From NCBI GenBank assembly GCA_021373255.1, contig JAJFTD010000134.1, forward strand, positions 1 through 40,314: a stretch of DNA of 40,314 nt, read 5' to 3'. This stretch comes from a bacterium. GTDB taxonomy: Bacteria > Armatimonadota > UBA5829. The position numbers were made by a program, and so were the translations under genes. Under the pieces are notes generated by a model, which was not told where the DNA came from, did not search any database, and saw only the letters and a program-made list of their open reading frames with translations. Each line of letters opens with the position of its first letter. The stretch's first letter is position 1. Shown here piece by piece: positions 9,501-34,846 of the stretch.

Positions 9501-12360
9501 CCCCAATTTTCCCTGCAGATGGTATGTCCGCGCTATATTCATTCGGGTTGCCGGTAGGAGGCATTGTGACAGCAGTGAAATCGTCGCCATTTCTACGCCA
9601 GTAAAGTGTGACATTCCCCATCTTGTAGTTGTCCGTAACGACTGCGCTGACTTTATAGGATCCATAGAGAACTGCCGTGTCCACAAGCGGTGTGTGGACA
9701 ATCACAGGCGGTGTGCTATCAGTCCTGAGACTGAAGTCAACATCGCAGTTATCGTTAATAGAGCTGTCGCCATTGAAGACGACCCTGACTCTGTAATGAT
9801 CGGACCCTGGATATCCAGTGGTGTCCCATGCATACGATCCTAAATTATAGGGAAGCGATCCCGCACCAGAGATGAGATTCCATGTAGAACCACTATCTGT
9901 AGAGTATTCCAGTTTTACAGTATCAGAAGACTCCCACGCAACACCCAGTGTAGCCCAGGAGATGCCGATCGAATTACCTGGTTCGTAGATGCCTCCCCCG
10001 TTGGGAGCGCTGCACGTAACAGTGCGCAAGATGCGGCAGGATGTCAGGCGCTGGTAAAGGACGTCAGTAGACGTGTAGAAAGAGCCGGAAGTAGTCGCTT
10101 GCGGTGGGCACGACCCGTAATAGGAGCAGTTCCAATAGCCAAATGATGTAGATGGGGGAGTGTCGTAATCATAGTAAGCGTAGGCTGCAGCCGGCCAGGC
10201 GACCCCAATCATGTAGGACCTCCCGCTCAGCAGTCGAACCGATATCGGCCCAGAGCTGTGCCAGACTCGTGTGGCAACGGGCGGGTTAGTGATGGTGTTC
10301 TCATGGATCTTAGTGTAGGGTGCACCTGAGATCGACTCGTATACAACAAATCGAAGCTCACTACCGGACACGATTTCCAGGTATTGTTCGATCTGCGTCA
10401 GGTCACTATCAGCGGTGCATTCGAATACATTAGTTGCAGTGTATGAGGACATCAAACTAGCAATATATCCAGCCCCCACCGTATCAGCCCCACACTGAGT
10501 TATGTTGAAACAATGCAGGTCAATAGGTGCATTGGCCGGCTCATGCGATACATTGCGGGCTTTGGCAACGTCGCTGGCTTCAACGTAATAGCACACCTGA
10601 TCGCCGATGCGCAGCGGCCCTGGTATTGACGCCTTGTACGATTGCCAGCTGCCGGACGGGTCGGAAGTCGTCATAGGTACTGCCGTGAATGGCCCACCAT
10701 TTAAGCTCCAGTACAGTGTCACCGTGTCCGTCCCGACGCTGTCCCACAAGCTTACCAATACATCAAATGGCCACCAGAGTTTGCCTGTGTCTTGTAACGG
10801 CTTATCAAGAGATGAAAAGCTAGGACCCGTAGTATCCCAATTTAATGTGAAATCAGTATCGCATCGGTCTTCGACAGTCGAGTCCGCATTCCAAACCACC
10901 CGGACAAGATAGTCGAGCGAAGTGGGGTATCCAGTGGTATCCCAGTTGAACGATCCGGCTTCGCAGGGCAGGTTTTCAGCCCCGACGATTGGTGCCCAAG
11001 TAGTCCCAGAATTGGTCGAGTATTCCAGACGCACGGTATCTGCCGGTTGCCAGCAACTTCCCGTAGGTTTCCATGTCACTGGAACGACTGTACCAGGCTC
11101 GATCCAGTAATACATGTTGTCAGTAGGGAACTGTATTGCAAGACCACGGCTATCTAAGCAGAATGTTAGGCTCTGATTAAAGCGTGAAAAGTAAAATCCC
11201 GAGTGTTGAGTAATTGATGGCGGAGGATAGACCGTTGAATCAAAGCTATACTTGATCACTCCAAAGTCGGCCGAATCAACACTGGAGTCGTAACCATAAT
11301 AAGCGGTTACTCCACTCAATTGCCACGCCACCGCAATGAGATACGACCGTCCTTGGACCATGTGCACATTTATCGGCCCTGAACTATACATCATAGTGCC
11401 CGATTCCAGGGTGCTAACCGATTTCTCCAATAGCTTGGTGAATGTGCCATCGCCGTATGGGCGCGGAGATTCGTAGACAACGAATCTGAGTTCTGTTGGC
11501 CCGGACAGGTTTGTAGGTAGATTTAAATACTGTGAGAACTCCAGCAGTTCCGAGGATGCCGAGCAGTAAAAAATGTTGCCGCACATCAGCGGACCAGCGA
11601 CGGTGGTGGCGGTGGTGGCGCCGACAACCTGAGTACACTGTGTTGCTACTCCTACTCGATAGGTTTCCGTAGGCGCACCGGCAGGCAGGCGAGTGATGTT
11701 AGGGTTATAAGAAGTATCTGTTGTCTCTATGTAATATCGAAACTCATCACAAGACAGCGCCGGACCAGGGATATCAGCGCTGTAATCGTTCGGATTACCG
11801 CTGGGGCTCATCGACGCTTCTGTGATTGGACCGCCATTCTTGCTCCAGTAAAGTTTTACTGAGGCAATGCCGTGGTCATCAGTTGCTGTCGCGCAGACCC
11901 TGTACGGCCCCGCCCCAGCGGGAATATCATACAGTCTGGTGTGCGTAACCGTCGGAGGTTTTGTGTCAATAAAGAACGTAAAGACGGAGTCCGAGGTATC
12001 ACTGGTATTCTCATGACCAACGCTTGTAGCCTTGACCAGATACTGCGTTGATGCGGTCAGTCCTGTGGTGTTCCATGCGAACGAGCCCACGGTGTAGGAT
12101 AGAGATTGCGCACCGGAGATCTGGTTCCACGTCGTGCCCGTGTTACTGGAGTATTCCAGCCTCACGGTGTCACCTGTCTGCCACCCACCGGAACAGGACC
12201 AGCACACCTGCACAGTCTCTCCAGGCTGGTATACTTCGCCGCCGTTTGGCGTGAGCAGACTCAACCCGCGCGGCGCTGCCGATAGTGGCCCAGCCACAAG
12301 GAGAGCAAACAAGATGATTGCAACAGCATAATGGCACAACCTACATTTGCTGAAAGACAT
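6574..12360 (-). CDS. Giant secreted modular surface protein with four Ig-like repeat modules
   Basis: 1928 residues from an ATG 8 bases after GGAGG; an in-frame ATG 36 bases upstream was rejected. A signal peptide ends near LSA-AP (residue 29). Three full modules and one partial (about 8330-12240) each hold an Ig-like unit (DTVRLEYS..SGTTW, ending DTTPP) and an Fn3-like unit (VTLYWS.NGG, YSADIPG). The first three also hold a Cys-rich sandwich unit (SELRFVVYE, SSGPISV). Then come a beta domain (7740-8300), half of a choice-of-anchor-D domain (FGRIDSG, near 7650), a LamG-like domain (7050-7590), the other anchor half (FAPTWGGPRS, near 6900) and an OB-like end (FYIQDDDRTGGIGV). No LPXTG, PEP-CTERM or other sorting tail is visible. 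It is likely an extracellular binding or matrix protein; the ligand is unknown. Confidence 0.8.
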   Translation of the reverse strand: MSFSKCRLCHYAVAIILFALLVAGPLSAAPRGLSLLTPNGGEVYQPGETVQVCWSCSGGWQTGDTVRLEYSSNTGTTWNQISGAQSLSYTVGSFAWNTTGLTASTQYLVKATSVGHENTSDTSDSVFTFFIDTKPPTVTHTRLYDIPAGAGPYRVCATATDDHGIASVKLYWSKNGGPITEASMSPSGNPNDYSADIPGPALSCDEFRYYIETTDTSYNPNITRLPAGAPTETYRVGVATQCTQVVGATTATTVAGPLMCGNIFYCSASSELLEFSQYLNLPTNLSGPTELRFVVYESPRPYGDGTFTKLLEKSVSTLESGTMMYSSGPINVHMVQGRSYLIAVAWQLSGVTAYYGYDSSVDSADFGVIKYSFDSTVYPPPSITQHSGFYFSRFNQSLTFCLDSRGLAIQFPTDNMYYWIEPGTVVPVTWKPTGSCWQPADTVRLEYSTNSGTTWAPIVGAENLPCEAGSFNWDTTGYPTSLDYLVRVVWNADSTVEDRCDTDFTLNWDTTGPSFSSLDKPLQDTGKLWWPFDVLVSLWDSVGTDTVTLYWSLNGGPFTAVPMTTSDPSGSWQSYKASIPGPLRIGDQVCYYVEASDVAKARNVSHEPANAPIDLHCFNITQCGADTVGAGYIASLMSSYTATNVFECTADSDLTQIEQYLEIVSGSELRFVVYESISGAPYTKIHENTITNPPVATRVWHSSGPISVRLLSGRSYMIGVAWPAAAYAYYDYDTPPSTSFGYWNCSYYGSCPPQATTSGSFYTSTDVLYQRLTSCRILRTVTCSAPNGGGIYEPGNSIGISWATLGVAWESSDTVKLEYSTDSGSTWNLISGAGSLPYNLGSYAWDTTGYPGSDHYRVRVVFNGDSSINDNCDVDFSLRTDSTPPVIVHTPLVDTAVLYGSYKVSAVVTDNYKMGNVTLYWRRNGDDFTAVTMPPTGNPNEYSADIPSAGKIGDTYCYYIQVVDGSLAGNIITEPAGAPGQPHCFTTVACAVDVLGTGLASATYTENLCGNVFNCSVTSELKEIRQHLNISSASSLVFYIYEYVPSSGTYTVKASYTVQNPGTGDAWYSSGPISFNLLSGYKYRICVYIQGTATAYYDLTGHPISTAIGNSSYGYGLVSGSAVFHQELTSCRTPCGITLTSFNSGGYYEPGSESCPKAVLMAWSYYGVNWRKSDTVRLEYSNDSGGTWNQIPGAEALAYPTASYNWNTSGFPELDHYRVRVVFNADSLVSDVSDNDFILKWDTTPPVVTHTPLQDTDNWNASTYQVSAGVTDDRWINSVTLYYSRNGSAYSSVAMGGSTTFSGNIPGGYKIGDTYSYYIVAKDGSCAMNTTRMPAEGAYQFKSIATLDRFTQQNGLHDLNNTCVTFTPNGAPDFYTACTRPILTLPTDPVDGTTLSLTNNGYQQVTLADNAQVSIYGNLFGSFYIGSDGYVSFGSTGTTYRYLADHFACKRISGLMCDLNPAAGGSVSWKQLADRVAVTYLNVPYYGTTTQNTFQIEMFFDGKIALSYLGIQYSSAITGLSAGTGTPTNFITSDFSAYPQCCPGDIVLEDSIAPADDKAMDFGRIDSGLSRRERVTLRNTSQCELLVKDIRITEYTEDFNDGFAQNWRELNDADWNVVNGQYVASTTSSSVDMISIYEGDVFNDFYWEVSARILHPGYMPILIFRVTPDFQIYPVVGSGYLFLVSMSCGVPDFGIYRQINGKIIMMASGRWSYGVTGGTYKLAVNAVGPLLQFFINGIKVAEVTDSSLSSGMLGLSVLNDYTSTFDDIVVTQPLGTTLPQARGFSLERLPTLPLMLAAGGSIDFDAIFAPTWGGPRSTNIFIDTSDPDQPTAKLRLSGTGISTQKCSSLKSLRDGGPVGITGGRVSAVFADRFYIQDDDRTGGIGVLWGGSMPAEGNLVTVVGSMTTQSGERLISATEVTAAGQQSAP
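8330..12240 (-). repeat. Four tandem approximately 1.1-kb repeat modules within the surface protein
   Basis: Approximate bounds: module 1, 11150-12240; module 2, 10030-11150; module 3, 8950-10030; module 4, 8330-8950, which lacks the third subdomain. All carry the recurring words DTVRLEYS or DTVKLEYS, YRVRVV or a variant, and TLYW or TLYY. The first three end with LTSCR or a close variant. The modules have diverged, so this is an old internal amplification. Confidence 0.8.
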
Positions 12361-12465
12361 GCCCGTGTCCTCCCAATCCAGCAGGCATTTGTGCACGTTC
12401 TATATGTGGAGAGCACGAACAACTATTATCTGTGACACATAAGCCTGATCGCTACAGTATACTGG

Positions 12466-12495
12466 AATCTACCACATTAATTAATTAGTTGTCAA
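12466..12495 (-). promoter_or_regulatory. Likely promoter of the surface protein gene
   Basis: On the minus strand TTGACA (12495-12490) is followed after 18 bases by TAGATT (12471-12466). The -35 box is perfect and the -10 box matches at 4 of 6. This predicts a leader of about 100 bases, in an AT-rich stretch with TTAATTAATTA. Confidence 0.55.
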
Positions 12496-12588
12496 GTCTG
12501 TAGAGTAGTTCTCGCATTTGTGAGTTAGGAGTATACAACATCTAATATCATTTCAACGAGATCTTCCCTTTAACCACTATTCAGCCTA

Positions 12589-12830
12589 ATCCAGCCGCGC
12601 GTAAATATCATGGGTTACCTGACATGCATGCGAGAAGCCATCAAGATGATACGTAACAAGGGCAGTGGGCAAATTGTGAATGTCGGGGCACTCTCTGCAA
12701 AAGTCAGGGAGGTCGGTAGTAATGTTTACGTCGCCACCAAGGCCGCGATCGAGGCGGATGAGTGAAAGCCTGTGCAAGCAGCATGCTGAAGATTCAGCCC
12801 GAAGCTCCAGAAAGAACCTCGGGCCTCACC
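12589..12830 (+). pseudogene. Remnant of a short-chain dehydrogenase/reductase
   Basis: This 500-base gap between genes is not empty. From about 12601 one plus-strand frame reads VNIMGYLTCMREAIKMIR and then GSNVYVATKAAIE. These are the SDR segments N-x-x-G, the Ser-bearing strand (IVNVGALSA) and the catalytic YxxxK (YVATK). The frame stops at TGA 12763-12765. Dropping into another frame just before it continues with MSESLCKQHAED, which fits the helix that follows the active site in SDRs. The N-terminal nucleotide-binding half is missing. It is a truncated, frameshifted gene with no start or ribosome binding site. The 3' limit is approximate. Confidence 0.65.
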
Positions 12831-12869
12831 TGTGATTGTCACAACATTATAAGGATGAATTCGTATTCC

Positions 12870-14186
12870 TCACCCTTTGATTCCCGTCAGCGTCACTCCC
12901 TCAATGAAGTACCTCTGCGTGAAGAAGAACAGGAGGAGCACTGGGATCATTACCATGGTCGACGCGGCCATAACCATTCCGAACTCCGCGGAGTGTTCGC
13001 CCTGGAAGAGCTGGAGAGCGTAGGCCAAGGTCATTTTTTCTGGAGAGTTCAGGTAAATCAACGGCCCCATGAAGTTGTTCCATGAGCCCATGAAGGTCAT
13101 GATTGCCACCGCTGCAAGGGCGGGTTTTACTTGTTGGATCATGATCTTCCAAAAGGTTGTCCAGTATCCGGCGCCATCGATCCTTGCTGCTTCTTCAAGC
13201 TCTTGAGGTATAGTCATGAAGAACTGTCTGAGCAGGAAGACGCTGAATGCGCCACCGAAGAACGTGGGGACCCAGAGTGGACGCAGTGTATCCACCCATC
13301 CAAGAGACCGGAAGATCAAGAACACAGGCATCATAGTAACCGCGCCGGGCAGCATCATTGTCGCCAGCAGCAGTGCGAAGAACAGTTCTTTCCCAGGCCA
13401 CTTCAACCGAGCGAATGAATATGCCACCATCGAGCTGGAAATAAGGGTGCCCAGGACGCTGAGGATTGTCACATACAGCGTATTCCAAAGGTAAAGCAGG
13501 CCCTTATGTGTACCTTTCGGCACGAAGTCCAGGGCGTCGGTATAGTTCTCCCATCTCAGACCGAATTTCCTGATTTTGGAAAGTTTCTCCATATTAACGG
13601 TCATGATCTCACCGGCATGCGGCTGCCCGGCGAGTACCTTAACCTTTTTACTTCCGTCGTCTAAATCAAGGATTTCAGCTACTTTCACATTCTTCCCGTC
13701 GATAACCACCCGGGAGAGCCCGCATTTCTTGCCATCCAGCTTTACCTGCACCTGCCGTGTCGGCACCCACACCGGGGGATACTTGAAAATCTGATCCTCT
13801 TCTTTGAATGAGGTCGATACAAGCCAGATAAAGGGGCAGATGAATATTATTGCGCCAGTCAGCAAAACCAGGTGCGTAGCAACTGTTTTCGCCATCTGTT
13901 GTCTCCACCCCACACCATGTGACTTTGCCACTTTGGTGGACGTGGCAGCATACCGGATAGCATATCCACCAGCCAGAAGTGCGACCGTGATAAAGTACAT
14001 AACCGGTGAAGCGGCATGAATAAGGCTCCCAACGCCTATTACCACTGCTGCATAGCCAATATACTGGAGAATCGCCAGGTAGCTGCGATTCTTAACGCAT
14101 TCCCATATCAACACCGAGCACAGGCCTATAGCCATGTATAAAATGATCGTGCCCAGTATCCAGAACAACGGATAAAGAGATTGCAT
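12870..14186 (-). CDS. Enlarged MalG-type sugar ABC transporter permease
   Basis: 438 residues, against about 280 for typical MalG/UgpE permeases. The core is clear: the EAA loop EEAARIDGAGYWTTFWKIMIQQVKP (331-355, where it docks the ATPase), the FMGSWNNFMGPLIY segment, and a C-terminal TM ending in QRYFIEGVTLTGIKG. Two additions stand out. An N-terminal block of about 110 residues carries three extra hydrophobic segments. A charged insertion of about 75 residues (QVQVKLDGKKCGL to KIRKFG) sits after the first core TM, on the outer face where MalG meets the binding protein. The ATG directly follows the stop codon of the upstream fusion gene (TAGATG), so the two are co-translated. Confidence 0.88.
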   Translation of the reverse strand: MQSLYPLFWILGTIILYMAIGLCSVLIWECVKNRSYLAILQYIGYAAVVIGVGSLIHAASPVMYFITVALLAGGYAIRYAATSTKVAKSHGVGWRQQMAKTVATHLVLLTGAIIFICPFIWLVSTSFKEEDQIFKYPPVWVPTRQVQVKLDGKKCGLSRVVIDGKNVKVAEILDLDDGSKKVKVLAGQPHAGEIMTVNMEKLSKIRKFGLRWENYTDALDFVPKGTHKGLLYLWNTLYVTILSVLGTLISSSMVAYSFARLKWPGKELFFALLLATMMLPGAVTMMPVFLIFRSLGWVDTLRPLWVPTFFGGAFSVFLLRQFFMTIPQELEEAARIDGAGYWTTFWKIMIQQVKPALAAVAIMTFMGSWNNFMGPLIYLNSPEKMTLAYALQLFQGEHSAEFGMVMAASTMVMIPVLLLFFFTQRYFIEGVTLTGIKG

Positions 14187-16586
14187 CTAGCCACCCTTCT
14201 CATTTTCGTAGTAGACCCATTTTTTCGCCATCTTGAGGTTAAACAAGGTGAGCAAAAGGATCACTACAAACAAAATCCACGCGATTGCGGAGGCATAACC
14301 CATCTTGAAGTAGTTGAACGCATTGCTGAACAGATAGAGCACAGGCACCATGGTCGAGTCCACCGGGCCTCCACCTGTCATAATATACTGCGTTTCAAAA
14401 CTCTGCAGCACCCCTATTGTGCCCATAACCAAATTGAAGAATATATACGGTGTGAGCATAGGCAGGGTCACATTCCAGAGCCTGGACCACCATCCTGCGC
14501 CATCTATGTCTGCGGCTTCGTATAGCGCTCTGGATATCCCCTGCAGACCTGCAAGCCACAATATGATTCCACCACCAGCCGCCCAGAGTCCCATTACTAT
14601 GAGAGCGGGTTTTGATGTGTACTCGCTTGCCAGCCACAGTGGGGGAGCAATGTGGAACCACGATGTGAACGTTGCGCGCCATGCGGTGTTGATCAAACCA
14701 TATTCCGGGTTTAATACCCATATCCAAAGCACTGCGCTGGCGACTGACGGCACAATGGATGGCAGATAATACACCGTCCTGTACCAATTCATTCCGCGTA
14801 CTTTGGTATTCAGAAGCATAGCTGCGGAAAGACTCACTATCATTCCGAGCGGAAGTCCCCAGAGAGCGAGGTAACCGACATTGTACATCGCCTTTGACAT
14901 AAAACACCGGTCATCAGTCAGCAGATTGACGTAGTTATTAAGCCCAACCCACTTTGCCGGGTGCAGCACATCGTAATCGCAGAAGCTGAATACTAACGAC
15001 GCGATTATGGGTCCCAGCGTGAATACGAGGAAACCGAACAGCCATGGGCAAGCGAATAAATACCCAGCGACAGCCTCTTTTTTAGATAGTCTGCTAAGCG
15101 GGCCTCTTCTCCGGTGTATCGCTGCCACGACAAGGCAGCCAATAATTGCAAACAAGCCCACAATACCAATAGGATACGCCCAGTTAAGATCATGATAAGT
15201 AGCTTTGTTCCGAACCTTATCGAGTTCTTTCTGCACTACCCGTTGACCAAAACTAAGCGCTGCCTTAGGCGATTTTTTGTGGTTAATCGCACTATCCGTG
15301 GCCCTTACCTGCTCATCCCACAGACGCAGCCCAATAAAGGTGACAGGCCTGTACAGCGAATCCGGCAAAAGGCTCAACGTAGTCTGCTGTGCATCTCTGA
15401 GGCGGCGAATTTTGGGAGAAAACTCGCGGATCAAGATGTCATTGACGCGAGAGTTGGCAGTTAACCAGGGCACATAAGTGCGGCCTTTACTGATATTGTA
15501 TTCGCGCTGAGCCTTATGGATAAGCCTGGTACCTTCTTCAGACTTCAGCCATTTTATAAGAGCCCAAGATTCTTCTACATGCCTGGCCCCACGAGGGATC
15601 GCCCAGGAAAACCCTCCGCTCCAGGTGATATACTGCGGCTTTCCCTTGAAACCAGCTTTGCCTTCGTATCGGTCCACAGGCACCGGCGCAGGGGCGACGG
15701 CAAAATCAAGGCCGGGGTTGTATCTGGCGATTGAGTTAATGAATATTCCGCAGTCGACCTTCATGGCCACCTGTCCGGTCAAGAAGGGATCAAGCTCACC
15801 ACCCTTAAAACCCGACGCAAACGAATTGAGTGCCTGCACTCCTTTGAACTGGTCATAATATTTGACCAGGAAATCAAGAGCTTCGACAGTCTTGGGGTTG
15901 TCTAGGGTGCAAGTCCGGCAGTCCGGGCTCATAAACTCTCCACCATTCTGCCAACTGAATAGATAGAGCCAACTATTGCCATACAGCGGAATAAAGCCTA
16001 TTCGATCAAAACCACCATCTGCGCGATATTTTGTCAGCCGCTTTGAATAACTGATAAGTTCATCCCATGTGCGCGGGGGACGGTTCGGGTCCAGGCCGAC
16101 TTCTCTAAAGAGCTGCCGATTGTAATAAAGCACTCTGTCGTCTATGTCGTCTGGAATAGCATAGACTTTGCCCTCATAAACCGCCTCGTTCCAAGCTGCT
16201 TTATAATATTCTTCGGGCCTTACTCCATCGTGTTTTTTGCGATCACGTTCGATCAACTCGTTGAGTGGTGTGAATGTAGCACGAGCTGCCCAGTCTCCAA
16301 CAGTAAACCTGTCCTGCAGCACTACATCAGGCGGTACCTTGCCGACAATGGCTGTCATCAGCTTTTGGGAGTTCATATTACCCGCACCCATACCAAGCAT
16401 CTCTACTTCGATATTGGGGTGGCGGCGCTCAAACTCGGCGTAGGCAGCTTCCCAACCCTTCATGCGTTCCGGAACCATCGGTCCCCATACTACAAGTTTG
16501 ATTTTCTCGGGTTGATTGCTTTTACAGCCGCCTATAGCGAATAAGGAAATTACAAGCAGTAAAGCGGAGACAATTCTTCGAAACAA
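14187..16586 (-). CDS. Sugar-binding lipoprotein fused to MalF-type ABC permease
   Basis: 799 residues from a TTG about 7 bases after GGGGA. A lipoprotein signal ends at IGGC (Cys21). Residues 30-460 form an extracellular sugar-binding domain (family 1): LVVWGPMVPERMKGWEAAYAEF, GKVYAIPDDIDDRVLYYNRQLF and a WSGGFSWAIPRGARH stretch. One TM (about 472-491) leads into a MalF permease (about 505-795) with the EAA loop EAADIDGAGWWSRLWNVTLPMLTP near 690-713. No stop or frameshift separates the halves. Each importer would thus carry a tethered binding protein. No ATPase gene is adjacent, so a shared MsmK/UgpC-type ATPase is presumably coded elsewhere. The sugar is unknown. Confidence 0.92.
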   Translation of the reverse strand: MFRRIVSALLLVISLFAIGGCKSNQPEKIKLVVWGPMVPERMKGWEAAYAEFERRHPNIEVEMLGMGAGNMNSQKLMTAIVGKVPPDVVLQDRFTVGDWAARATFTPLNELIERDRKKHDGVRPEEYYKAAWNEAVYEGKVYAIPDDIDDRVLYYNRQLFREVGLDPNRPPRTWDELISYSKRLTKYRADGGFDRIGFIPLYGNSWLYLFSWQNGGEFMSPDCRTCTLDNPKTVEALDFLVKYYDQFKGVQALNSFASGFKGGELDPFLTGQVAMKVDCGIFINSIARYNPGLDFAVAPAPVPVDRYEGKAGFKGKPQYITWSGGFSWAIPRGARHVEESWALIKWLKSEEGTRLIHKAQREYNISKGRTYVPWLTANSRVNDILIREFSPKIRRLRDAQQTTLSLLPDSLYRPVTFIGLRLWDEQVRATDSAINHKKSPKAALSFGQRVVQKELDKVRNKATYHDLNWAYPIGIVGLFAIIGCLVVAAIHRRRGPLSRLSKKEAVAGYLFACPWLFGFLVFTLGPIIASLVFSFCDYDVLHPAKWVGLNNYVNLLTDDRCFMSKAMYNVGYLALWGLPLGMIVSLSAAMLLNTKVRGMNWYRTVYYLPSIVPSVASAVLWIWVLNPEYGLINTAWRATFTSWFHIAPPLWLASEYTSKPALIVMGLWAAGGGIILWLAGLQGISRALYEAADIDGAGWWSRLWNVTLPMLTPYIFFNLVMGTIGVLQSFETQYIMTGGGPVDSTMVPVLYLFSNAFNYFKMGYASAIAWILFVVILLLTLFNLKMAKKWVYYENEKGG

Positions 16587-25970: not shown

Positions 25971-28040
25971 CTACTCCCGTATATTGACCCCTATATACTT
26001 GACCTCCAGCCCTTCTAATTCGATCTCTGGAGCTTTATCAATGGTGGCGGAGTCAATGCGAGTGCCGTGATCAAGGCTGCTCCAGTCGGTAAGCTCGTGT
26101 TTTTTAGCCGCGGAGAGTTCCAGTTCGGGCGCATCCAGGGGGATACGGACTATAAGCGTATCTTCGGTGGGGTTCACCAGCACTATGAAGCCGGAATCAT
26201 CAATCACATGCCCTGCGCCGTCTATGCTCTTGCCATCGGGGAACCCGAGCACGTGCTGATAGGTGTCGAAGTACTTCTCAAATCGCTTCCTGAATGCGAA
26301 GAGTTTCTTGAGAAACTCAACAAACTCAGGCCGCGCAGTGTTGAAATCGACGCTGCCGCCAGCTTGGGCAAGCCCGTTGCCGATCATACTCATCTCGGCG
26401 TGGAACAGCTCGTGCAGCGGCCGCTTGGTGAGGTTGTCCTGTCCCGCTTCGTGCCAACCCACCCCATACCAGCTTCCACGAATGGCACGATACGGGTGCT
26501 CCCAGGTCATCTGGTAAAGCTGCTGGCGCTGGATAAGCTCTGCCTGAATCGTGGGGAACTTGTGCGTGTCCGATATCTGCTCCTGATCCAACGCGCACAG
26601 GCGGTGATTGTTCAACGGCAGGCTAAACGCTGATATAACAAGATCCTCACGCGCCTCATGTGCCTCACGGCATATCTCCGCAAGCCGTTTCCACGCCTTT
26701 ATCCGCAACTCGTCTACGTTTTTATGATCGTGATCTTGCAATTCGCACTCGGGGATGTTCCAATCGTTGCCGTCCCAATAGATAGACCGCGCGTTCATTT
26801 CGGTCACCAGGTCCAGGAAGCGCTTTTTCACATATTCGAAGTAATCCGACATCACACACATCGCCAGCGCACCTGAACGGCCGGAGGTCTTGCCCGGCAC
26901 AGTCCACTCCGGGTGCTCATCCTCCACACTTGAACGCCAATAACTGCAGCTAAACGGGTTGATCCAATAGGACATATCCAACCCCGCGGCGTCCTTAGCC
27001 TTGCGGACTACCTCAGCGATGCCATTGGGAAACTTGGAGGAATCTATTCTAAGCGGCCAACCAGACTCCCAGCCCAGGTCCAGATGCAGCGCATCGAAAA
27101 AGCCCGCATCCCTTAACCGTTCTATTGTGTCAAACAACAGATTGCGGTCGAAGTTTGAGAGGATCGGTTGGTTGCCCTCACGCGTGACAAACCACGTGTT
27201 CCACTCGACAGGCAAGTTCTTACCGTTAATGACGCACCAGTGATTCATCAGATGCTCGTTGTAACGCCTGAAACCAACCTCCGGCGCGCCCGAGTATGCG
27301 CCAATTATTGCAGCACCCGTGGTAAGGCCCTCAGTAAGTGGGACAAAGTCCCTGTGCTTCATTATGAGACCGGTGGGGCGATGGAAGTCCTCCTCACCAG
27401 TGAGCGATTCGGTAAAAAAGAATAATCCCTCGTTATAGCCCCAGTAGGTAACTATAGCCCGGCTAGTATCACCAAAAGAGAACCGTCTCTCAGGCTCGGT
27501 GACGTTGGCTTTATCGGGGTCTATGTGGACGTTATCTTCGTTATTGGAGTGAGTTTTGGTGTAGCGCGGCATTGGGATAACGCCCTCGACCATCTCCTTC
27601 ATACGAATGCTCTCGATGGTCACGCTGGTGATCGCCCAACCCAGCAGGTCACATGGCTCGATCTTGATCCACTTGCGCATGAAGCTGTCTCCAGCGCGCA
27701 CCTGGTAGAACACAGACAGCCGCAGCAGCTCATCATTCACTTCAGACTCGAGCTTTACCTCAATAGTCTTTATCTCATCATTCCAATCAGGGGTCTCGTA
27801 ACCGGCGATATTGAAGTCTTTGAAGTCGAGGACAACTTTCTGGCCTTCTCCAGATACTGTGATCTCAAACTCAGCATTAGTCTGATCCAGATACTCCTCA
27901 CCGTTCAGCGCGTTCACCAGGCTGGTGGTGCCGATTCTGCCGGATATACTATGTATCCTGCGGTGAATCCAACTGTTACCTAACTCAAAAACATATCCGC
28001 CCGGTATCTCCTGAGCAAACCCAATCGCTGCGTCATCCAT
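25971..28040 (-). CDS. GH36-like (alpha-galactosidase clan) glycosidase
   Basis: 689 residues from an ATG 7 bases after GGAGG. There is no signal peptide, so it is cytosolic. An N-terminal beta-sandwich (about 1-280) precedes a TIM barrel (about 285-600) and a small C-terminal beta domain. Barrel landmarks of clan GH-D are HLDLGWE (Asp321, where GH36 has DDGW) and SIYWDGNDW (Asp423, candidate nucleophile, where GH36 has KWD). MSYWINPFS stands where GH36 has the WxEPE-type strand. This supports retaining alpha-galactosidase-type activity, but divergence leaves the substrate open. It is single and convergent with the DUF985 gene (11-base gap). Confidence 0.65.
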   Translation of the reverse strand: MDDAAIGFAQEIPGGYVFELGNSWIHRRIHSISGRIGTTSLVNALNGEEYLDQTNAEFEITVSGEGQKVVLDFKDFNIAGYETPDWNDEIKTIEVKLESEVNDELLRLSVFYQVRAGDSFMRKWIKIEPCDLLGWAITSVTIESIRMKEMVEGVIPMPRYTKTHSNNEDNVHIDPDKANVTEPERRFSFGDTSRAIVTYWGYNEGLFFFTESLTGEEDFHRPTGLIMKHRDFVPLTEGLTTGAAIIGAYSGAPEVGFRRYNEHLMNHWCVINGKNLPVEWNTWFVTREGNQPILSNFDRNLLFDTIERLRDAGFFDALHLDLGWESGWPLRIDSSKFPNGIAEVVRKAKDAAGLDMSYWINPFSCSYWRSSVEDEHPEWTVPGKTSGRSGALAMCVMSDYFEYVKKRFLDLVTEMNARSIYWDGNDWNIPECELQDHDHKNVDELRIKAWKRLAEICREAHEAREDLVISAFSLPLNNHRLCALDQEQISDTHKFPTIQAELIQRQQLYQMTWEHPYRAIRGSWYGVGWHEAGQDNLTKRPLHELFHAEMSMIGNGLAQAGGSVDFNTARPEFVEFLKKLFAFRKRFEKYFDTYQHVLGFPDGKSIDGAGHVIDDSGFIVLVNPTEDTLIVRIPLDAPELELSAAKKHELTDWSSLDHGTRIDSATIDKAPEIELEGLEVKYIGVNIRE

Positions 28041-28197: not shown

Positions 28198-28611
28198 ATG
28201 GAAGCGCAGCTCTCGAAATCATTAGAGATCCGTATACCAGCAGATACCCGATATGTGGCCGTTGTTAGACGCGGCGTGCGAAGTCTTGCTGAATCCGTGG
28301 GTTTCACGGGTGAAGACTTGACCGATATGGAGGTGGCCGTCTCAGAAGCCGTCACCAATTCGGTCACTCACGGCAGCCCCAACACCGATGCAGCCGTGCT
28401 GGTAAAATGCCAGGCCTCTGGAGAGCGTGTGGTAGTGGAGGTCGAAGACCAGGGTGCAGCAGAAGACCTGCCTCTTGAGCCCATACATGACAGAATTGAG
28501 GAGCATGGCAGAGGCGTCCTGATGATGCGCACGCTTATGGACGAACTCGAAGGCAGCCGCACCAACAGCGGTATGAAAGTGAGAATGGCAAAGCAGAAAG
28601 GGCAACGATAA
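28198..28611 (+). CDS. Second RsbW-type ATPase with degenerate G1 box
   Basis: 137 residues from an ATG 8 bases after AGCAGG. It is a stand-alone HATPase_c_2 domain like the protein at 19708. The N box is good (SEAVTNSVTHG) and the G2 box is good (HGRGVLMMRTLMDEL). The G1 box reads EDQGAAED instead of DxGxG, so ATP affinity may be changed. It would be an anti-sigma factor or switch kinase in a partner-switching pathway. No STAS antagonist is nearby. The two paralogues are only about 30% alike by eye, so they probably have different partners. Confidence 0.85.
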   Translation: MEAQLSKSLEIRIPADTRYVAVVRRGVRSLAESVGFTGEDLTDMEVAVSEAVTNSVTHGSPNTDAAVLVKCQASGERVVVEVEDQGAAEDLPLEPIHDRIEEHGRGVLMMRTLMDELEGSRTNSGMKVRMAKQKGQR

Positions 28612-28862
28612 GGTCGGAAGGTCATAAAGTCAGAAGGTTAAAAGGTTGGGGAAGAAAAAAGTTTATAGTTCGGACAGATCTCTGATCTGGCCCGCATTGA
28701 CCAGATGGCATCTCTGATGCCACAACGTATGCTCATGAGTAAAACATGGTGGGATCGGAGATCCCATTTTGTCCTTTCCGGCGCAGATCAGAGATCTGCC
28801 CGAACCTTAGGTTGGTACGCCGCCCATTTCCCAACCATCAAGCCATCCAACCATCAGACCTG
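28610..28862. repeat. Octamer arrays in opposite orientation flanking an inverted-repeat element
   Basis: Five tandem octamers (28610-28649) follow the consensus AAGGTYRG. On the far side, from 28831, CCAACCAT, CAAGCCAT, CCAACCAT and CAGACCTG run as the reverse complement of nearly the same octamer (ATGGTTGG). The left array begins inside the stop codon of the RsbW-type gene. The right array contains the stop codon of the glycyl radical enzyme gene. Confidence 0.75.
28668..28805. repeat. 138-bp element with 22-bp terminal inverted repeats and four triloop hairpins
   Basis: The ends 28668-28689 and 28784-28805 are inverted copies matching in 21 of 22 positions. Inside are four hairpins with 3-base loops: CAGATC/GATCTG at each end, TGGCATC/GATGCCA (28706-28722) and TGGGATC/GATCCCA (28750-28766, followed by TTTT). 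No open frame is present and no target duplication is obvious. It resembles a MITE or REP-type element. Confidence 0.7.
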
Positions 28863-30998
28863 CTGGGTGCGGTTGATGATCATATTCTGCCAGTCCTGGT
28901 TCAGTGTGACAAACCTGGCTGACCAACCTGACACGCGCACAGCTAAATTGAGGTATTTCTCTGGATGCTGCTGGGCGTCCAGCAGCGTATCGTTGGATAC
29001 TACGTCCACTTGTGTGTAAAAACCACCAAGCCTCTCAAAACCACGAAGTAGGCCGACCAGCGCATCAAGCCCGGCTTCTCCCTCCCCCGTCCGTGGGTCA
29101 AGTTTCAGTTCAAGAGCTGCACCGCTTGGAAGCCTGACCAGATTCATCGAGCAATATGACTTTATCACTGCAGTGGGGCCATTTCTGTCGGTGCCAGGGG
29201 TTGGTGAGAAGTTACAGGCCAGGTAATCATCTGCAAGAGTGCCCAGAGCTGTGGCTCCACGGTCCACGCGCCATCCGATCTCTCGTCCAAACGTGCTCAC
29301 CCCCGCCGGGCGCATCACACCATTACGCTCAGGGATGCGCTCAACAGCAGCCACAAAATCATCCAGCACCCGCCTGGTCATCGCGTCTGCACATGGTGAA
29401 TCATTGCCATAACATTCAACACTGCTGATTATGTGATGCCGCAGCGGTTCATGTCCAGCCCAGTTGTGCTTTAGGCAGTCAACTAGATCAGGCAGAGAAA
29501 TGAGTTGCTCTTCGTATACCATCTTCTTGATAGCTAATAGAATGTTGGCTGCATCCTGAGGCCCGGAGGCGTGAGGGGCGCAGAAGTGATAGCGGGCTCC
29601 CTTGTTGTGATAACCGAGCCCCTTTTCTATACAATCATTAGTCAGCAGATCAATAAGCCCGGAAGGAAGCGGCTTTCCACGCTCTGCTATATAGTTTCTA
29701 GGAAAGTCATCAGCATAGGTGTGGAACGAACTAACTGCAGAGTTGAGCCTTTCTCGGAAAGCTGCGTAAAGGCTCTCGAAATCTGAGAAGTCTGCGGGCT
29801 GATCATCGCCGGTTACTCCAAGCGTCTGCTGGAGCAGCATTACAATGTCTATGCAAGTATATATAAAACAGGTTTCGCCGGGAATCTGCGCCTCCCAACA
29901 ACCGTCGTTTGTGAACCTGCGTGCGGTTTCAACAGGAAAACCCAGCCCAACCAGACCGGCAATCACCGTATCCTCGCAGTAAATCGATACGACTCCGCCG
30001 CCATAACGCTGCACTTCGGCTATACGCCTCAGAAGCTGCTCGGGAGTGTTTTTGTTGATACGCACGGCTATGGGGAAGTCGCTGATATGCAATTCCTCGA
30101 TAATGTCCAACACCAGATACGTGACCTCGTTGGTCACTTCATGTCCATCAACATCCACACCGCCGAGTATGATGTTTTGATAGAACTGCCCATCCCCGGT
30201 CCCGTTGAACGGGTCTGGAGCGCCGATCCACTCACAGCCATTGATCCAAAAGTGAGCGAGTATCTCGCGCGCTTCATCCAGAGTGATCAGGCCGGATTCC
30301 AGGTCATGCCGGAGATACGAGCCAAGCATTTCGTCGATACGCCCGATCCCCGGCCAGTTGCCGCACAACCTTTGAAACGCCCACATAAACCACAGGCTCT
30401 GCACCGCCTCATGAAAACTGCTGGGCGGATTTTCGGGTACATTAGCAAGGGCATTGCGCACCTGCCGGTAACCGGCTTTCTCTTCGCCATCAGAAGATGC
30501 TATCAGGTCGTCCAACAGGTCAAGATAACGCTGATGCCAAATATTCGCTGCATCCAAACAAAGCATGAGCGAGTTCAGATAATCCACTGTTTCAGAAGTC
30601 ACATCAGGGCGCGACAGCCTCTCGCGTATTTGCTCTCTCAGCGCCCTGTAGCCTGTATGCAAGACTCTATCAAAGCCAAGTGTAATATGGCTGGTACTGC
30701 TCCATGGCAGCTTCCCCGATAGATACACCGGCACTGTATGCCGCGTGGCTTGAGCAAGTGTGGCTGAACCGACTATAAGTTGACCGGGCAGCACGCGCAA
30801 AGGTGCCTTATTACAGACCATCTCCACGCCGCGGGCATAAAGCATTTCCTCAGATAGATTCTCAAAGCCATCGATAAAGCTGAGATCCAGCTTCATATCC
30901 ACTAATGCTCTGCCCCATTCGCCGGACTGCGCGCGATGCGCGAGCATGTGCGTAGTGTCAGATAAATGCCGGTCCACACCTGATAGCCGTACTGCCAT
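28854..30998 (-). CDS. Glycyl radical enzyme (pyruvate formate-lyase-like family)
   Basis: 714 residues from an ATG 8 bases after AGAGG. The C-terminus carries the glycyl radical motif RVSGWSARFV (radical on Gly691), 24 residues from the end. The thiyl-radical Cys367 is in NDGCWEAQ. The PFL domain also shows NPPSSFHEAVQSLWFMWAF. Both key residues are present, so it should be active after installation of the radical by a radical-SAM activase, which is not in the window. It is shorter than PFL or diol dehydratases and lacks their substrate motifs. The reaction is unknown. It is third in an operon with a glycosidase-like gene and a DUF6785 gene, which hints at anaerobic breakdown of a carbohydrate-derived compound. 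Confidence 0.9.
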   Translation of the reverse strand: MAVRLSGVDRHLSDTTHMLAHRAQSGEWGRALVDMKLDLSFIDGFENLSEEMLYARGVEMVCNKAPLRVLPGQLIVGSATLAQATRHTVPVYLSGKLPWSSTSHITLGFDRVLHTGYRALREQIRERLSRPDVTSETVDYLNSLMLCLDAANIWHQRYLDLLDDLIASSDGEEKAGYRQVRNALANVPENPPSSFHEAVQSLWFMWAFQRLCGNWPGIGRIDEMLGSYLRHDLESGLITLDEAREILAHFWINGCEWIGAPDPFNGTGDGQFYQNIILGGVDVDGHEVTNEVTYLVLDIIEELHISDFPIAVRINKNTPEQLLRRIAEVQRYGGGVVSIYCEDTVIAGLVGLGFPVETARRFTNDGCWEAQIPGETCFIYTCIDIVMLLQQTLGVTGDDQPADFSDFESLYAAFRERLNSAVSSFHTYADDFPRNYIAERGKPLPSGLIDLLTNDCIEKGLGYHNKGARYHFCAPHASGPQDAANILLAIKKMVYEEQLISLPDLVDCLKHNWAGHEPLRHHIISSVECYGNDSPCADAMTRRVLDDFVAAVERIPERNGVMRPAGVSTFGREIGWRVDRGATALGTLADDYLACNFSPTPGTDRNGPTAVIKSYCSMNLVRLPSGAALELKLDPRTGEGEAGLDALVGLLRGFERLGGFYTQVDVVSNDTLLDAQQHPEKYLNLAVRVSGWSARFVTLNQDWQNMIINRTQQV

Positions 30999-31024
30999 TT
31001 AGGAGCCTCTTTATCACTACAAGG

Positions 31025-32674
31025 TTATTGACCCTTGTTGAAGGTTAAAACGGTAAAGCTGATCGGTGGGCAAGGCATGTTTGTTATGGTCACTTTGCCC
31101 CCCTCACTCCTGCACGCCACCGAGTTTACAGGCGTCAGGCATTTTTTACTTACGGCATCACTATCGGGATAACCTTCAAATTTTGCACTACCATTATGTC
31201 CAGGTTCCCTACCCATGCAGGATGCCACGCGGGTTCTATCATAGAGATACCTGGTAGCGGTCCAGTGCCCGGACTTCATGCCGGAGATTGAGATATCTGC
31301 AGCTTGTTGGTCGCTTGATTTGTTAACGACTATCACTCGCAGGTCGTCCGGTCCACCGGTTGCGAAAGCCTCGACCATCGGCGCTCCGCCACCCTTAGCT
31401 GCCGCTGATACCACTTGTCGGCCTTTTATCAGCCCACCCTGATCCTGCAGCAATTTGAAAGCAAACCATATAGGATATCTATATGCCTTATTATCTCCAG
31501 TCATATCCTGCATTCCGTAGTAGTTGCGCCCGTTAAACTTAAAGGCATCTGCGCCCTTTCCTGTCGAGGCTATGTTGCTTAGAACAGACGCCCACCACAC
31601 GCCGCCGAAATAGTTGCAGTTCAGCCAACAGTCAGTATCAGCTCGATACTTGGGCCAGTCGTTGTTCACAGGGTTCCGCTGATAATAAGACGTCGCATCA
31701 ATATCTATTTCGGTAAATGTTATCCCTATCTTCTTACCTGATGGATTGAGGGTCTTGTCACTAAGCAGCACAGACAGGCTACTGGTCGCATCCCTGAACA
31801 TAGTCGTCTTTTCCATCAGGTATTTAGTAGCGGCAGTGTCGGCCATTGTGAGGATGTCATCGTTATTGTTCTTCATCAACTCTACGTAACCGTGATCATT
31901 GGTGCCGTACCAGTGCATGCTCACCATATCCAGCAAATCTGCTCCATATTTCTTGAGATACGGCTTTACGAACCTTTCCTCCACCGACCACTGTGGCCAT
32001 GTAGCCGGGCCAATCAATATGGCAGCCGGGTCAGCCTCGCGCACGCCTTTTGCCACGGCATAATGAATCTCTACAAGCGGCATATCGACACCCATCTCGT
32101 AGATGGTCTCATAGCTCTGTCCCACAAATCCTTTGGAGACTAGATAGGCCGTTATATCCCGCGTGATTTGTGTCATTGCATCGAGCTGATTACCATAACC
32201 ATCACTAACTTTCGAGCCGTCGGTGTTATACCTGCACCATGAGTTCTGCTTGTGGTCGTTGGCATCGCCATGGAACCACTTCGGCATCGCACCTCCGCCA
32301 CCGTGAATAGTGAACGCAAGCAATGGGGTCCAGCCATTGGTTATGATCGTCTTGATATTATCTACCAGAGTCATATTGACGTCGGCAGGCCCGGTAGCAT
32401 CCCAATGATAATCTCCGGGCTTATCTCCGCAGAGCCCTGTCAAGTTGACATTCAACCGGCAGTATTTGGTATTGATGTCATTGAAGTTCGTGATCATGCC
32501 GGTGTTGATAATATCCCCCCAGCCGTTGTAGCCGAAGCTATAGAGATCACCAATCGGGCCAAGCGGCTTACCGGCATCAACCGTAATTTCAGTCAGAGAT
32601 GGCTCTATAGCAGCCACCGCAGAGTTAGCAAGTATAAACGTGCAGATCAACATTGGGACAATCAATCTCAGCAT
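31025..32674 (-). CDS. Secreted GH39/GH30-like glycoside hydrolase-type protein
   Basis: 549 residues with a signal peptide (1-21, AVA-AI). The ATG lies 11 bases after GGAG. A TIM-barrel domain (about 40-420) precedes a C-terminal beta domain (about 430-549) whose DLRVIVVNKSS.QQAADISISG strand pattern is typical of clan GH-A accessory domains. The likely nucleophile strand is GITFTEIDID (Glu322). The acid/base strand reads YEMGVDMP (192-199) where GH39 proteins have W-E-x-W-N-E-P, so Asp197 stands in place of Glu. It may be a divergent glycosidase or a binding protein. It lies 26 bases upstream of the glycyl radical enzyme gene in the same operon. Confidence 0.65.
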   Translation of the reverse strand: MLRLIVPMLICTFILANSAVAAIEPSLTEITVDAGKPLGPIGDLYSFGYNGWGDIINTGMITNFNDINTKYCRLNVNLTGLCGDKPGDYHWDATGPADVNMTLVDNIKTIITNGWTPLLAFTIHGGGGAMPKWFHGDANDHKQNSWCRYNTDGSKVSDGYGNQLDAMTQITRDITAYLVSKGFVGQSYETIYEMGVDMPLVEIHYAVAKGVREADPAAILIGPATWPQWSVEERFVKPYLKKYGADLLDMVSMHWYGTNDHGYVELMKNNNDDILTMADTAATKYLMEKTTMFRDATSSLSVLLSDKTLNPSGKKIGITFTEIDIDATSYYQRNPVNNDWPKYRADTDCWLNCNYFGGVWWASVLSNIASTGKGADAFKFNGRNYYGMQDMTGDNKAYRYPIWFAFKLLQDQGGLIKGRQVVSAAAKGGGAPMVEAFATGGPDDLRVIVVNKSSDQQAADISISGMKSGHWTATRYLYDRTRVASCMGREPGHNGSAKFEGYPDSDAVSKKCLTPVNSVACRSEGGKVTITNMPCPPISFTVLTFNKGQ

Positions 32675-32708
32675 GTGTAAATCATCTCCAAATCAAATAT
32701 AGTGGATA

Positions 32709-34697
32709 CTACCAATTTACAGGATACACCGACAAGTTAGTAAAGCAACCGACCAACATAAACAGCGCTCCGTGGAGCACATCACCCACAAACAATCCGA
32801 AGAAAAATGGCAGCGCGCGCTTGTAAAGTTTTAGGCCGCCAAACTTGATGAGCACCACCTTAATCAACCACGCCACAAAGAACGGACACCATGTAAAGTT
32901 CATATAATGAGTATTGGCCATAGCATAGCCGACAGGGTGGAACGGCCACCAAATGTAACGCATTCGGAAAAGGCCGAGCAGGCCCGTAATGATAGCCCCA
33001 GCGCTGACACCCTTTATGCTGTTCCAATCAATTGGCTTAGGCATTTTAAGCTGCTGCTCAAGGCTGCTGAACACTGTATTGCCTATCAAGCTACGCCAGG
33101 GTTCGGTCTTGGCAAGAGCACCGAAGTGAGTCCATATAGCAAGCGCAATAATGAATGATATCGTAACCCCGACCGCCACCGCAACCATCATCGGGACAAT
33201 CAGCTTTCGATAATCAAGTTTAGCGGAGTCTGCCATCTTCAAAGCATCGAGTTGGTGCGGCATGCACGATCCACGCATATCTGTGCCTACAGCCTGCTTG
33301 ACATAAGTCAATACCGTAAGATCGGCAGCACTAAAAAACCGGGTGCCCAACATGCTCTGCATCAGCGACAGTCCATCAACATCCGGCCCCACAGGCCAAA
33401 CATTACCGGTCTCTGCCCGGATACGGGTCGCAGCTATGAGATAGCAGAGTACAACCAACAGCAGCAAAAATGCTACACTGCCCCTGGCGCCCGCAGCCAC
33501 CGCGAAACTTATCATCACCAGCATACACACCGCAAGCCCTATAAACGCCCACCGGTAGGTCCCGGCGTCCGGATCATTAGATGTATCGCCTGTATGCGGA
33601 AATGCCTGCTTGAATATCTGTTTGAGGTGGCCTCGCGCCTGCCACAGCACCAGGACAGCCAGTCCCAGAAATGCGCCAGCGCCCTGGTAGCCTATATACG
33701 GAAATACAGATGTTGAACCGTAGCCACCGCCCGAAGTGGAACGCATAGCAGCGCCAAACACCAGTTCAGCCTTAGTGAACAGATAGAAAAACCAGCAGCT
33801 AAAGGCGACTTCGGTGGAAAGCAAATAACCAATTGCTATCGCGAATGGGAAGAACGATATTGGTGTCCAACCTATGGCGTTCCACGGCGGAACCTGTGCA
33901 TATAATCCGATGTCGACGCATCTCACATTAATACCCGGAAAGCTGGGGATGTTCAAGTGAAGCGTGTTCACTACTCCCAGAAAGAACGCCACAGCTGATC
34001 CCATCCAGAACAGTCGATCCCTGAACAACGGAACGCCATCTTTAATCAGTTCTAGAGGCAGGGCAACCGTCGGGAACGGCAGCTTCTCGTTTTCTATCCA
34101 CTGTTTCCTGAGCAGGATTGATATGCACAAGGTAGCGCCAGAAAAGACGAACAAGAAACCTACCCACACCGCAATCTGGGTGGTCCATTGATCAAGAATA
34201 AATGGCGAGTTGCCGGCATAGAACGCATGCAGCGCATCTGGGTTCGTCTGCGCCATCCACGTCGGTATATACTGTTGAAACAACCCTCCCCACCCATTAA
34301 CACTATTGGCGAAGTAATGAGCTGCAGTAAGCGTGGGAATAAGCAGGTGAAGGCCACCGGATGACGAGATGACAGTCGATATGGTTGTCATTACGTAGAC
34401 AACCAGTATCTCTCCCTTAGAAAATGCTAACCCGGGCAGTATCCAGCGCACGAGCATGTTGACCGACACAAGGGCGAGCAAAATCGTGAATGCACCAAAC
34501 GGAATGGAGGTGTTAGCAAAGGCCATGTGTCCCTTAGTCCCGACCACAAGTTCTGAGTAATGCATCCAAAAACAAATTACAGCGCTGCACACCAGCCCAG
34601 TAATGAGTGTGCGAAACGTCAATACTCTAACTTGCGACTTTGGATCTTCAGGCAGCTTCTCGATAGATTTACTGCTCCGCCCTACCTTGATCACCAA
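32709..34697 (-). CDS. DUF6785-type polytopic membrane protein
   Basis: 662 residues with about 14 hydrophobic segments, from a TTG 9 bases after GGAGG. A GTG one codon later is possible. Signature stretches such as ISSSGGLHLLIPTLTAAHYFA and NEKLPFPTVALPLELI match the large, uncharacterised membrane family (DUF6785/6784) common in Armatimonadota and Planctomycetota and thought to be related to oligopeptide-type transporters. It is the first gene of the operon, 34 bases before the secreted glycosidase-like gene. A transport role for a product of that enzyme is reasonable but unproven. Confidence 0.8.
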   Translation of the reverse strand: MVIKVGRSSKSIEKLPEDPKSQVRVLTFRTLITGLVCSAVICFWMHYSELVVGTKGHMAFANTSIPFGAFTILLALVSVNMLVRWILPGLAFSKGEILVVYVMTTISTVISSSGGLHLLIPTLTAAHYFANSVNGWGGLFQQYIPTWMAQTNPDALHAFYAGNSPFILDQWTTQIAVWVGFLFVFSGATLCISILLRKQWIENEKLPFPTVALPLELIKDGVPLFRDRLFWMGSAVAFFLGVVNTLHLNIPSFPGINVRCVDIGLYAQVPPWNAIGWTPISFFPFAIAIGYLLSTEVAFSCWFFYLFTKAELVFGAAMRSTSGGGYGSTSVFPYIGYQGAGAFLGLAVLVLWQARGHLKQIFKQAFPHTGDTSNDPDAGTYRWAFIGLAVCMLVMISFAVAAGARGSVAFLLLLVVLCYLIAATRIRAETGNVWPVGPDVDGLSLMQSMLGTRFFSAADLTVLTYVKQAVGTDMRGSCMPHQLDALKMADSAKLDYRKLIVPMMVAVAVGVTISFIIALAIWTHFGALAKTEPWRSLIGNTVFSSLEQQLKMPKPIDWNSIKGVSAGAIITGLLGLFRMRYIWWPFHPVGYAMANTHYMNFTWCPFFVAWLIKVVLIKFGGLKLYKRALPFFFGLFVGDVLHGALFMLVGCFTNLSVYPVNW

Positions 34698-34749: not shown

Positions 34750-34846
34750 ATGACATCATAATGCAGGCAATACATATTGTCATTCAAGCTGGATCACATG
34801 AATTCCTTCTATATTTCACTTGACGTTATGACATCATGACATAATG
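34750..34846. promoter_or_regulatory. Repeated ATGACAT motifs between divergent DUF6785 and DUF378 genes
   Basis: ATGACATCAT occurs at 34750-34759 and 34828-34837, and ATGACATAATG follows in tandem at 34836-34846. The second cluster overlaps a TTGACG (34820-34825). The motif is likely a regulator site controlling one or both divergent genes. Apart from these repeats and the inverted repeats, the 289-base gap holds nothing coding. Confidence 0.45.

Follow-up and report, generated by a model that had tools for sequence, protein, structure and literature searches.

A three-gene operon in an Armatimonadota genome encodes a glycyl radical enzyme from a clade with no characterized member among the references tested, one branch of which carries predicted Tat signals

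We analyzed a 40,314-nucleotide stretch of an Armatimonadota genome (contig JAJFTD010000134.1; hereafter the window). As a sequence-only reading of the same DNA had proposed, three minus-strand ORFs, running from 34697 to 28854 with gaps of 34 and 26 bases, lie one behind the other and encode a membrane protein, an exported protein and a glycyl radical enzyme (GRE). The features are listed below in window coordinates.

34755..34783, minus strand: promoter-like ATGACA-17-TATGAT upstream of gene 1, from a scan in which such matches are not above chance
32709..34697, minus strand: gene 1, DUF6785/DUF6784 polytopic membrane protein, 662 aa, TTG or GTG start (Pfam, hydrophobic segments)
32675..32708, minus strand: 34-base gap before gene 2, with a GGAG ribosome-binding-like sequence
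31025..32674, minus strand: gene 2, Sec-exported protein, 549 aa, putative clan GH-A glycosidase (sequence comparison)
30999..31024, minus strand: 26-base gap before gene 3, with an AGAGG ribosome-binding-like sequence
28854..30998, minus strand: gene 3, GRE, 714 aa, cytosolic, without a signal (Pfam, tree)
30687..30689, minus strand: His104 codon, equivalent of GDH His164 and HypD His160 (alignment)
29898..29900, minus strand: Cys367 codon, thiyl radical site, in NDGCWE (alignment)
29892..29894, minus strand: Glu369 codon, general base of the CxE motif (alignment)
29283..29285, minus strand: Arg572 codon, clade-specific, in the STFGR loop, which is carboxylate-binding in HypD (alignment)
28926..28928, minus strand: Gly691 codon, glycyl radical site, in RVSGWSARF (alignment)

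Both downstream genes are preceded by a purine-rich ribosome-binding-like sequence. The next ORF downstream of the GRE gene is HATPase-like and lies on the opposite strand (about 28199-28612), and the next gene upstream of gene 1 is 609 bases away; the operon is thus delimited to these three genes, which are probably co-transcribed. Promoter-like matches in the operon region showed no excess over shuffled sequence. Elsewhere in the window, positions 25971-28040 encode a GH36/melibiase-like protein (23.7 bits against a Pfam cut-off of 27) on the same strand and outside the operon, and inspection by eye of positions 14187-16586 revealed a 799-aa frame in which a sugar-binding lipoprotein and an ABC permease are seemingly fused, followed by a second permease.

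The product of gene 3 matched the Pfam families PF02901 (PFL-like; 311 bits, cut-off 24.3) and PF01228 (Gly_radical; 80 bits, cut-off 22.2), and its C-terminal Gly-radical domain, RVxG loop and mid-protein radical Cys place it in the GRE superfamily. Cys367 and Gly691, the catalytic pair named in the sequence-only reading, do align with the radical Cys and Gly of reference GREs. Cys367, Glu369, His104 and Tyr273 are invariant in all 45 clade members checked and the radical Gly in 44 of 44; the Cys-x-Glu motif with its partner His, present in 45 of 45, is that of the GRE eliminase subgroup. Trp215, Asp269, Gln271, Asn364, Asp365, Phe378, Asp384, Ser568 and Arg572 are also invariant and nearly clade-specific, and Arg580, likewise nearly clade-specific, is kept in 44 of 45 members. 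The invariance of Arg572, Asp269 and Gln271 suggests a polar, possibly anionic, polyhydroxylated substrate, on which the enzyme would act as an eliminase.

Profile comparison did not assign the enzyme to a named family. Its top profile matches were diol and glycerol dehydratases, and its best NCBIfam score was to the TIGR01774 subfamily (347 bits against a cut-off of 678). It scored 311 bits against the HypD equivalog, whose cut-off is 1100, and reached less than one third of the cut-off for every full-length NCBIfam equivalog. The named GRE equivalogs (HypD, CutC, HpsG/HpfG, PFL, IAD and HPAD) were therefore rejected, all scores lying under the curated cut-offs.

Subsequently, we searched 84,980 GTDB species genomes with a pattern scan and tblastn and identified 452 relatives of the window GRE, of which the best 80 were fetched and examined at the locus level. 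These 80 originate from Armatimonadota, Hydrogenedentota, Planctomycetota, Chloroflexota, Lentisphaerota, Kiritimatiellota, Verrucomicrobiota, Poribacteria, Firestonebacteria, Bacteroidota and Bacillota (many of the last two from the gut), with one Lokiarchaeia MAG. Among 81 related genomes, nine, including the source genome itself, contain a close match (44-100% identity), and the other GREs of these genomes share approximately 25-36% identity with it. In a tree of 75 sequences, the 45 family rows formed one clade with an SH-aLRT of 100 and a long stem. The eight references in this tree, from which IslA, HpsG, HplG, HPAD and BSS were left out, were GDH, PD, HypD, CutC, YbiW, PflD, PflB and AfPFL2, five of them transcribed from HMMER alignments. 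None fell inside the clade, in support of the sequence-only reading; the window GRE belongs to a clade without a characterized member among the eight references tested.

Some clade members are unusual in structure. At the site matching residue 134 of the window GRE, members from Hydrogenedentota (L081, L109, L111 and L113, as well as the long ORFs of L102, L114, L118 and L124) carry an insert of approximately 215-225 aa. One member on G037:C140 (L043, L060) contains one TGA and one TAG, reflecting either a broken gene or a sequencing error.

We then surveyed the neighbors of clade members at 89 family loci, a few of them sampling the same place twice. Just two neighbor families were frequent: a GRE activase, a co-location that the sequence-only reading had proposed to look for and that was found at 40 of the 89 loci, and an AraC-type regulator (17 loci, usually divergent). 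The same reading had made conserved co-location of the three operon families a test of its proposal, and this was not observed. Among the 88 other loci, only L064 has a DUF6785 gene in the vicinity, approximately 4 kb off, outside the operon and separated from it by a gene on the opposite strand, and none has the secreted protein nearby, so the exact trio is private to the source genome. DUF6785 is present in 66 of the 81 related genomes, with copy numbers reaching at least 17, whether the GRE is present or absent, and was not found in G012, a genome with a window-type GRE. The secreted protein belongs to a rare family, encoded in 6 of 291 genomes of the phylum. In one of these six, G253, its gene follows a DUF6785 gene after 86 bases, in the same order as in the window and without a GRE. 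As this pair recurs once without the GRE, the latter looks like a local addition.

Genes for sugar-active proteins recur beside clade members in different forms. GH116 genes lie beside members in different phyla (L066, from Poribacteria, and L107), GH123-type genes at L058 (Armatimonadota) and L110 (Firestonebacteria), a GH78 gene at L101, divergent GH106 genes at L062 and L070, and GH42-like genes at L091 and L093. Directly downstream of the GRE at L095, one frame (12170-15046) combines a GRE activase with DUF2961 (GH172), which may reflect either a fusion or an error in the assembly of two neighboring genes. Beta-helix proteins are neighbors at L044 and L046, an enolase-superfamily protein at L113 and L118, and an MFS sugar transporter together with an amidohydrolase at L104. 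Because differing glycosidase families recur beside members, a sugar role for the clade is plausible. The recurrence is a raw count at family loci, at many of which the GRE is not flanked by any sugar gene; non-sugar neighbors occur elsewhere, and the glycosidase neighbors are accordingly support rather than proof.

These neighborhoods bear on an alternative to which we assign a lesser but appreciable probability, namely that the GRE works independently of its neighbors in anaerobic catabolism, acting for example on an amino-acid- or amide-derived hydroxy compound, and came to lie downstream of the DUF6785-glycosidase pair by chance. Its operon partners would then be uninformative about its substrate. 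The restriction of the trio to the source genome, the occurrence of the pair without a GRE in G253 and the absence of this GRE from the four other genomes of the genus all fit this explanation. So do loci in Chloroflexota, where a class III aminotransferase, an SDR and an M20 peptidase accompany the GRE, and a further locus, where its neighbors are a CN-hydrolase and an AMP-binding enzyme. Against it stand the glycosidase genes that recur beside the GRE in several phyla and the two operon-like gaps in the window.

The partner proteins were examined individually. The gene 2 product has a single hydrophobic segment, which spans residues 5-23 and stops close to an AVAA site; this fits a Sec signal and the export predicted earlier. 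It had no Pfam match over the cut-off; at an E-value limit of 10, only GH44 was returned (0.03-0.05), and comparison with the GH30, GH79 and GH44 profiles gave weak matches (E about 0.01-0.05). Glu193 and Glu322 are invariant in six homologs, making them candidates for the acid/base and the nucleophile, respectively, in the style of clan GH-A, and the protein is a putative clan GH-A glycosidase. Its predicted structure was unusable (pLDDT 33, with one sequence in the alignment). A paralog with 53% identity is encoded on contig C33 of the source genome (L146:7684-9312), in a stretch with apparent ABC sugar-transporter genes.

The gene 1 product matched DUF6785 (PF20581) at 455 bits against a cut-off of 25 and DUF6784 at 103 bits, and has at least eight strongly hydrophobic segments. 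A profile built from six members had no match among PDB sequences up to E 5, and the predicted structure was again unusable (pLDDT 33, two sequences in the alignment). The term transporter-like, which the topology suggests, thus rests on the hydrophobic segments. The literature searched contained no mention of DUF6785 by name.

Taken together, these features allow the operon to be read, with a probability we place a little short of even, as a small carbohydrate-use unit in which a glycosidase acts outside the cell, DUF6785 imports and a GRE eliminase works inside. The exported GH-A-like protein would liberate an extracellular sugar or sugar derivative, which the DUF6785 protein would probably carry in and from which the cytosolic GRE would remove a leaving group, most likely water, by radical chemistry. 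In this mechanism, an activase encoded on contig C149 would install the radical on Gly691, from which it would pass to Cys367; Cys367 would take a hydrogen from an OH-bearing carbon, Glu369, tuned by His104, would take the hydroxyl proton, and the resulting ketyl radical would expel the neighboring group to leave a deoxy-carbonyl product. The short gaps, the opposite-strand boundary, the invariant catalytic residues and their essential HypD equivalents, the dehydratase profile matches, the activase in the genome, the DUF6785-secreted pair recurring in G253 and the recurrent glycosidase neighbors argue for the carbohydrate-unit reading, and the non-conserved trio, the weak GH matches, the unusable models, the DUF6785 profile without a PDB match, the many family loci with no adjacent sugar gene and an activase from another clade argue against it. 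The three-step path of cutting outside, import and a radical step is possible. The suggestion of an undescribed anaerobic sugar pathway gains from the glycosidase neighbors and from a clade without a characterized member among those tested, and loses from a trio private to one genome.

The sequence-only reading had stated that no activase is present, which is correct for the window and incorrect for the genome. The source genome (4.19 Mb, 201 contigs, 100% complete) encodes a radical-SAM activase (TIGR02494, 353 bits) on contig C149 at 33212-34060, beside a URO-D-like gene, and a search with this activase as query found no second one there. The genome contains three GREs; pieces at the contig ends C24:4 and C121:28 overlap in sequence and look like one gene. 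The GRE on contig C24 (L051:9572-15675) is accompanied by a GntR-like ORF, a 2-hydroxyacid dehydrogenase, an aldehyde dehydrogenase and an FAA hydrolase, neighbors that resemble a sugar-acid pathway.

In an activase tree, the C149 protein groups with activases that are unlinked or beside other GREs (from G037, G015 and G017, then G008, G014 and G012). It lies outside the clade of activases adjoining family members, and this tree does not support it as the dedicated partner of the GRE clade. The window GRE might then be silent for want of a cognate activase, as the window has none and the sole genomic activase belongs to another activase clade. This explanation is very unlikely, given that the catalytic residues are all intact and that several GREs per single activase are common in Armatimonadota. 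The ratio of GREs to activases is 3:1 in the source genome, 11:1 in G012, 6:1 in G028 and 3:1 in both G020 and G022, and G037 has eight GREs (one broken) to one activase. With such ratios, one activase serving several GREs seems ordinary in the phylum, which bears on the activase specificity required.

The most interesting result lies at the level of the clade rather than the trio. Many members carry an in-frame twin-arginine signal upstream of the GRE core, among them SRREFLKAGAAAVGGGMLVMNGVGAAEAK (L045), NRRDFLRTGAAALGGGLLYLS (L044) and SRRDFVRASGASAVTGATFLIG (L078). The TIGR01409 Tat model matched 21 of 83 sampled N-termini at E<=0.1, with a best E of 1.2e-5. A motif-plus-hydrophobicity scan gave a background of 7 of 700 (1%) among other ORFs of the same loci and was positive for none of 22 other GREs. 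The Tat-bearing GREs are found at 23 loci:

L044, L045, L046, L061, L068, L069, L071, L072, L075, L077, L078, L081
L098, L099, L102, L109, L111, L113, L114, L116, L118, L124, L126

A further 14 members, from Bacteroidota, have a degenerate twin-arginine form (RK, RE, RS or RA). Mapped on the tree, signal presence, intact or degenerate, requires only two changes, a pattern that fits a single gain and a single loss, and the Tat signal was apparently gained once in the clade. None of the 12 Tat-bearing members on the tree has lost a catalytic residue, and an activase gene adjoins 12 of the 23 Tat-bearing loci and 12 of the 14 degenerate-signal loci. Of the 16 genomes that encode a Tat-bearing GRE, 14 contain TatC; it was not found in G008, G012, G014 or one genome from Clostridia, where the GREs are free of a signal. 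With a model match, a hydrophobic stretch and TatC in most genomes, these sister GREs have a predicted export signal. The window GRE, starting MAVRLSGVDRHLSD, has no SRRxFLK-type motif plus hydrophobic stretch.

Because Tat substrates cross the membrane already folded, activation of a GRE inside the cell could precede its export. We regard it as an even prospect that, with the window GRE remaining cytosolic, one branch of the clade folds and is activated in the cytoplasm before Tat exports it, giving the first extracytoplasmic GREs, which would act on sugars beside secreted glycosidases. The window operon would then represent the cytosolic version, hence its importer-like gene. To our knowledge, no GRE with an export signal is known and an exported GRE is undescribed; the literature searched, whose coverage was incomplete, contained no description of one. 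If the Tat-bearing branch is truly exported, radical enzymology would take place outside the cytoplasm, contrary to the current understanding of GREs. These oxygen-sensitive enzymes are among the main tools of anaerobes for breaking hard bonds, and new GRE clades have often meant new substrates. The present clade is widespread, occurring in gut Bacteroidales and Clostridia, Lentisphaerota, Planctomycetota, Hydrogenedentota, Armatimonadota and others, and we found no reaction assigned to it.

Comparison with known systems makes a pyruvate formate-lyase type C-C lyase of fermentation, suggested by the PFL-like Pfam domain, the least probable explanation of all, as the window GRE has no adjacent Cys pair, its GCWE motif places a Glu at Cys+2 that PflB does not have, TIGR01255 scores 69 bits against a cut-off of 994, and PflB is the most distant reference in the tree. 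With the B12-independent glycerol and 1,2-propanediol dehydratases (1r9d, 5i2a), it has in common the CxE motif, the His164 and Tyr339 equivalents and the glycine loop, but it lies outside their clade and has a shorter N-terminus. Relative to GDH, the clade has Gly217 in place of Ser282 and Ser568 in place of Tyr640, and Asp447 is not kept. The earlier statement that diol-dehydratase motifs are missing thus applies to the substrate pocket, which differs, and not to the catalytic core, which is kept.

HypD variants at His160, Glu436, Cys434 and Gly765 lose activity (PMC7077986). The window GRE keeps the equivalents of these four residues of HypD (6vxc) and has a polar residue in the carboxylate-binding loop, where HypD Thr645 binds the substrate carboxylate (PMC7077986) and the window enzyme has Arg572. 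In contrast, Asp278 is not kept and the two fall in separate clades; a true HypD-clade member is found in genome G005. The isethionate sulfite-lyase IseG/IslA is likewise of the eliminase type and, like the window GRE, has an Arg in the C-terminal substrate loop. IseG Arg676 helps bind the sulfonate (PMC6453916), and the sulfonate triad Arg187/Gln191/Arg676 (PMC6453916) was not identified at the same sites of the window GRE. E. coli YbiW and PflD are also CxE GREs with a neighboring activase gene, but both branch outside the clade. Finally, the aminoacyl radical enzymes (PMC11528403) are, like this clade, uncharacterized GRE homologs, mostly from MAGs and related to eliminases. They carry Ala, Ser or Thr at the radical position (PMC11528403), whereas the window enzyme has Gly691, and membership in that group was rejected on this residue.
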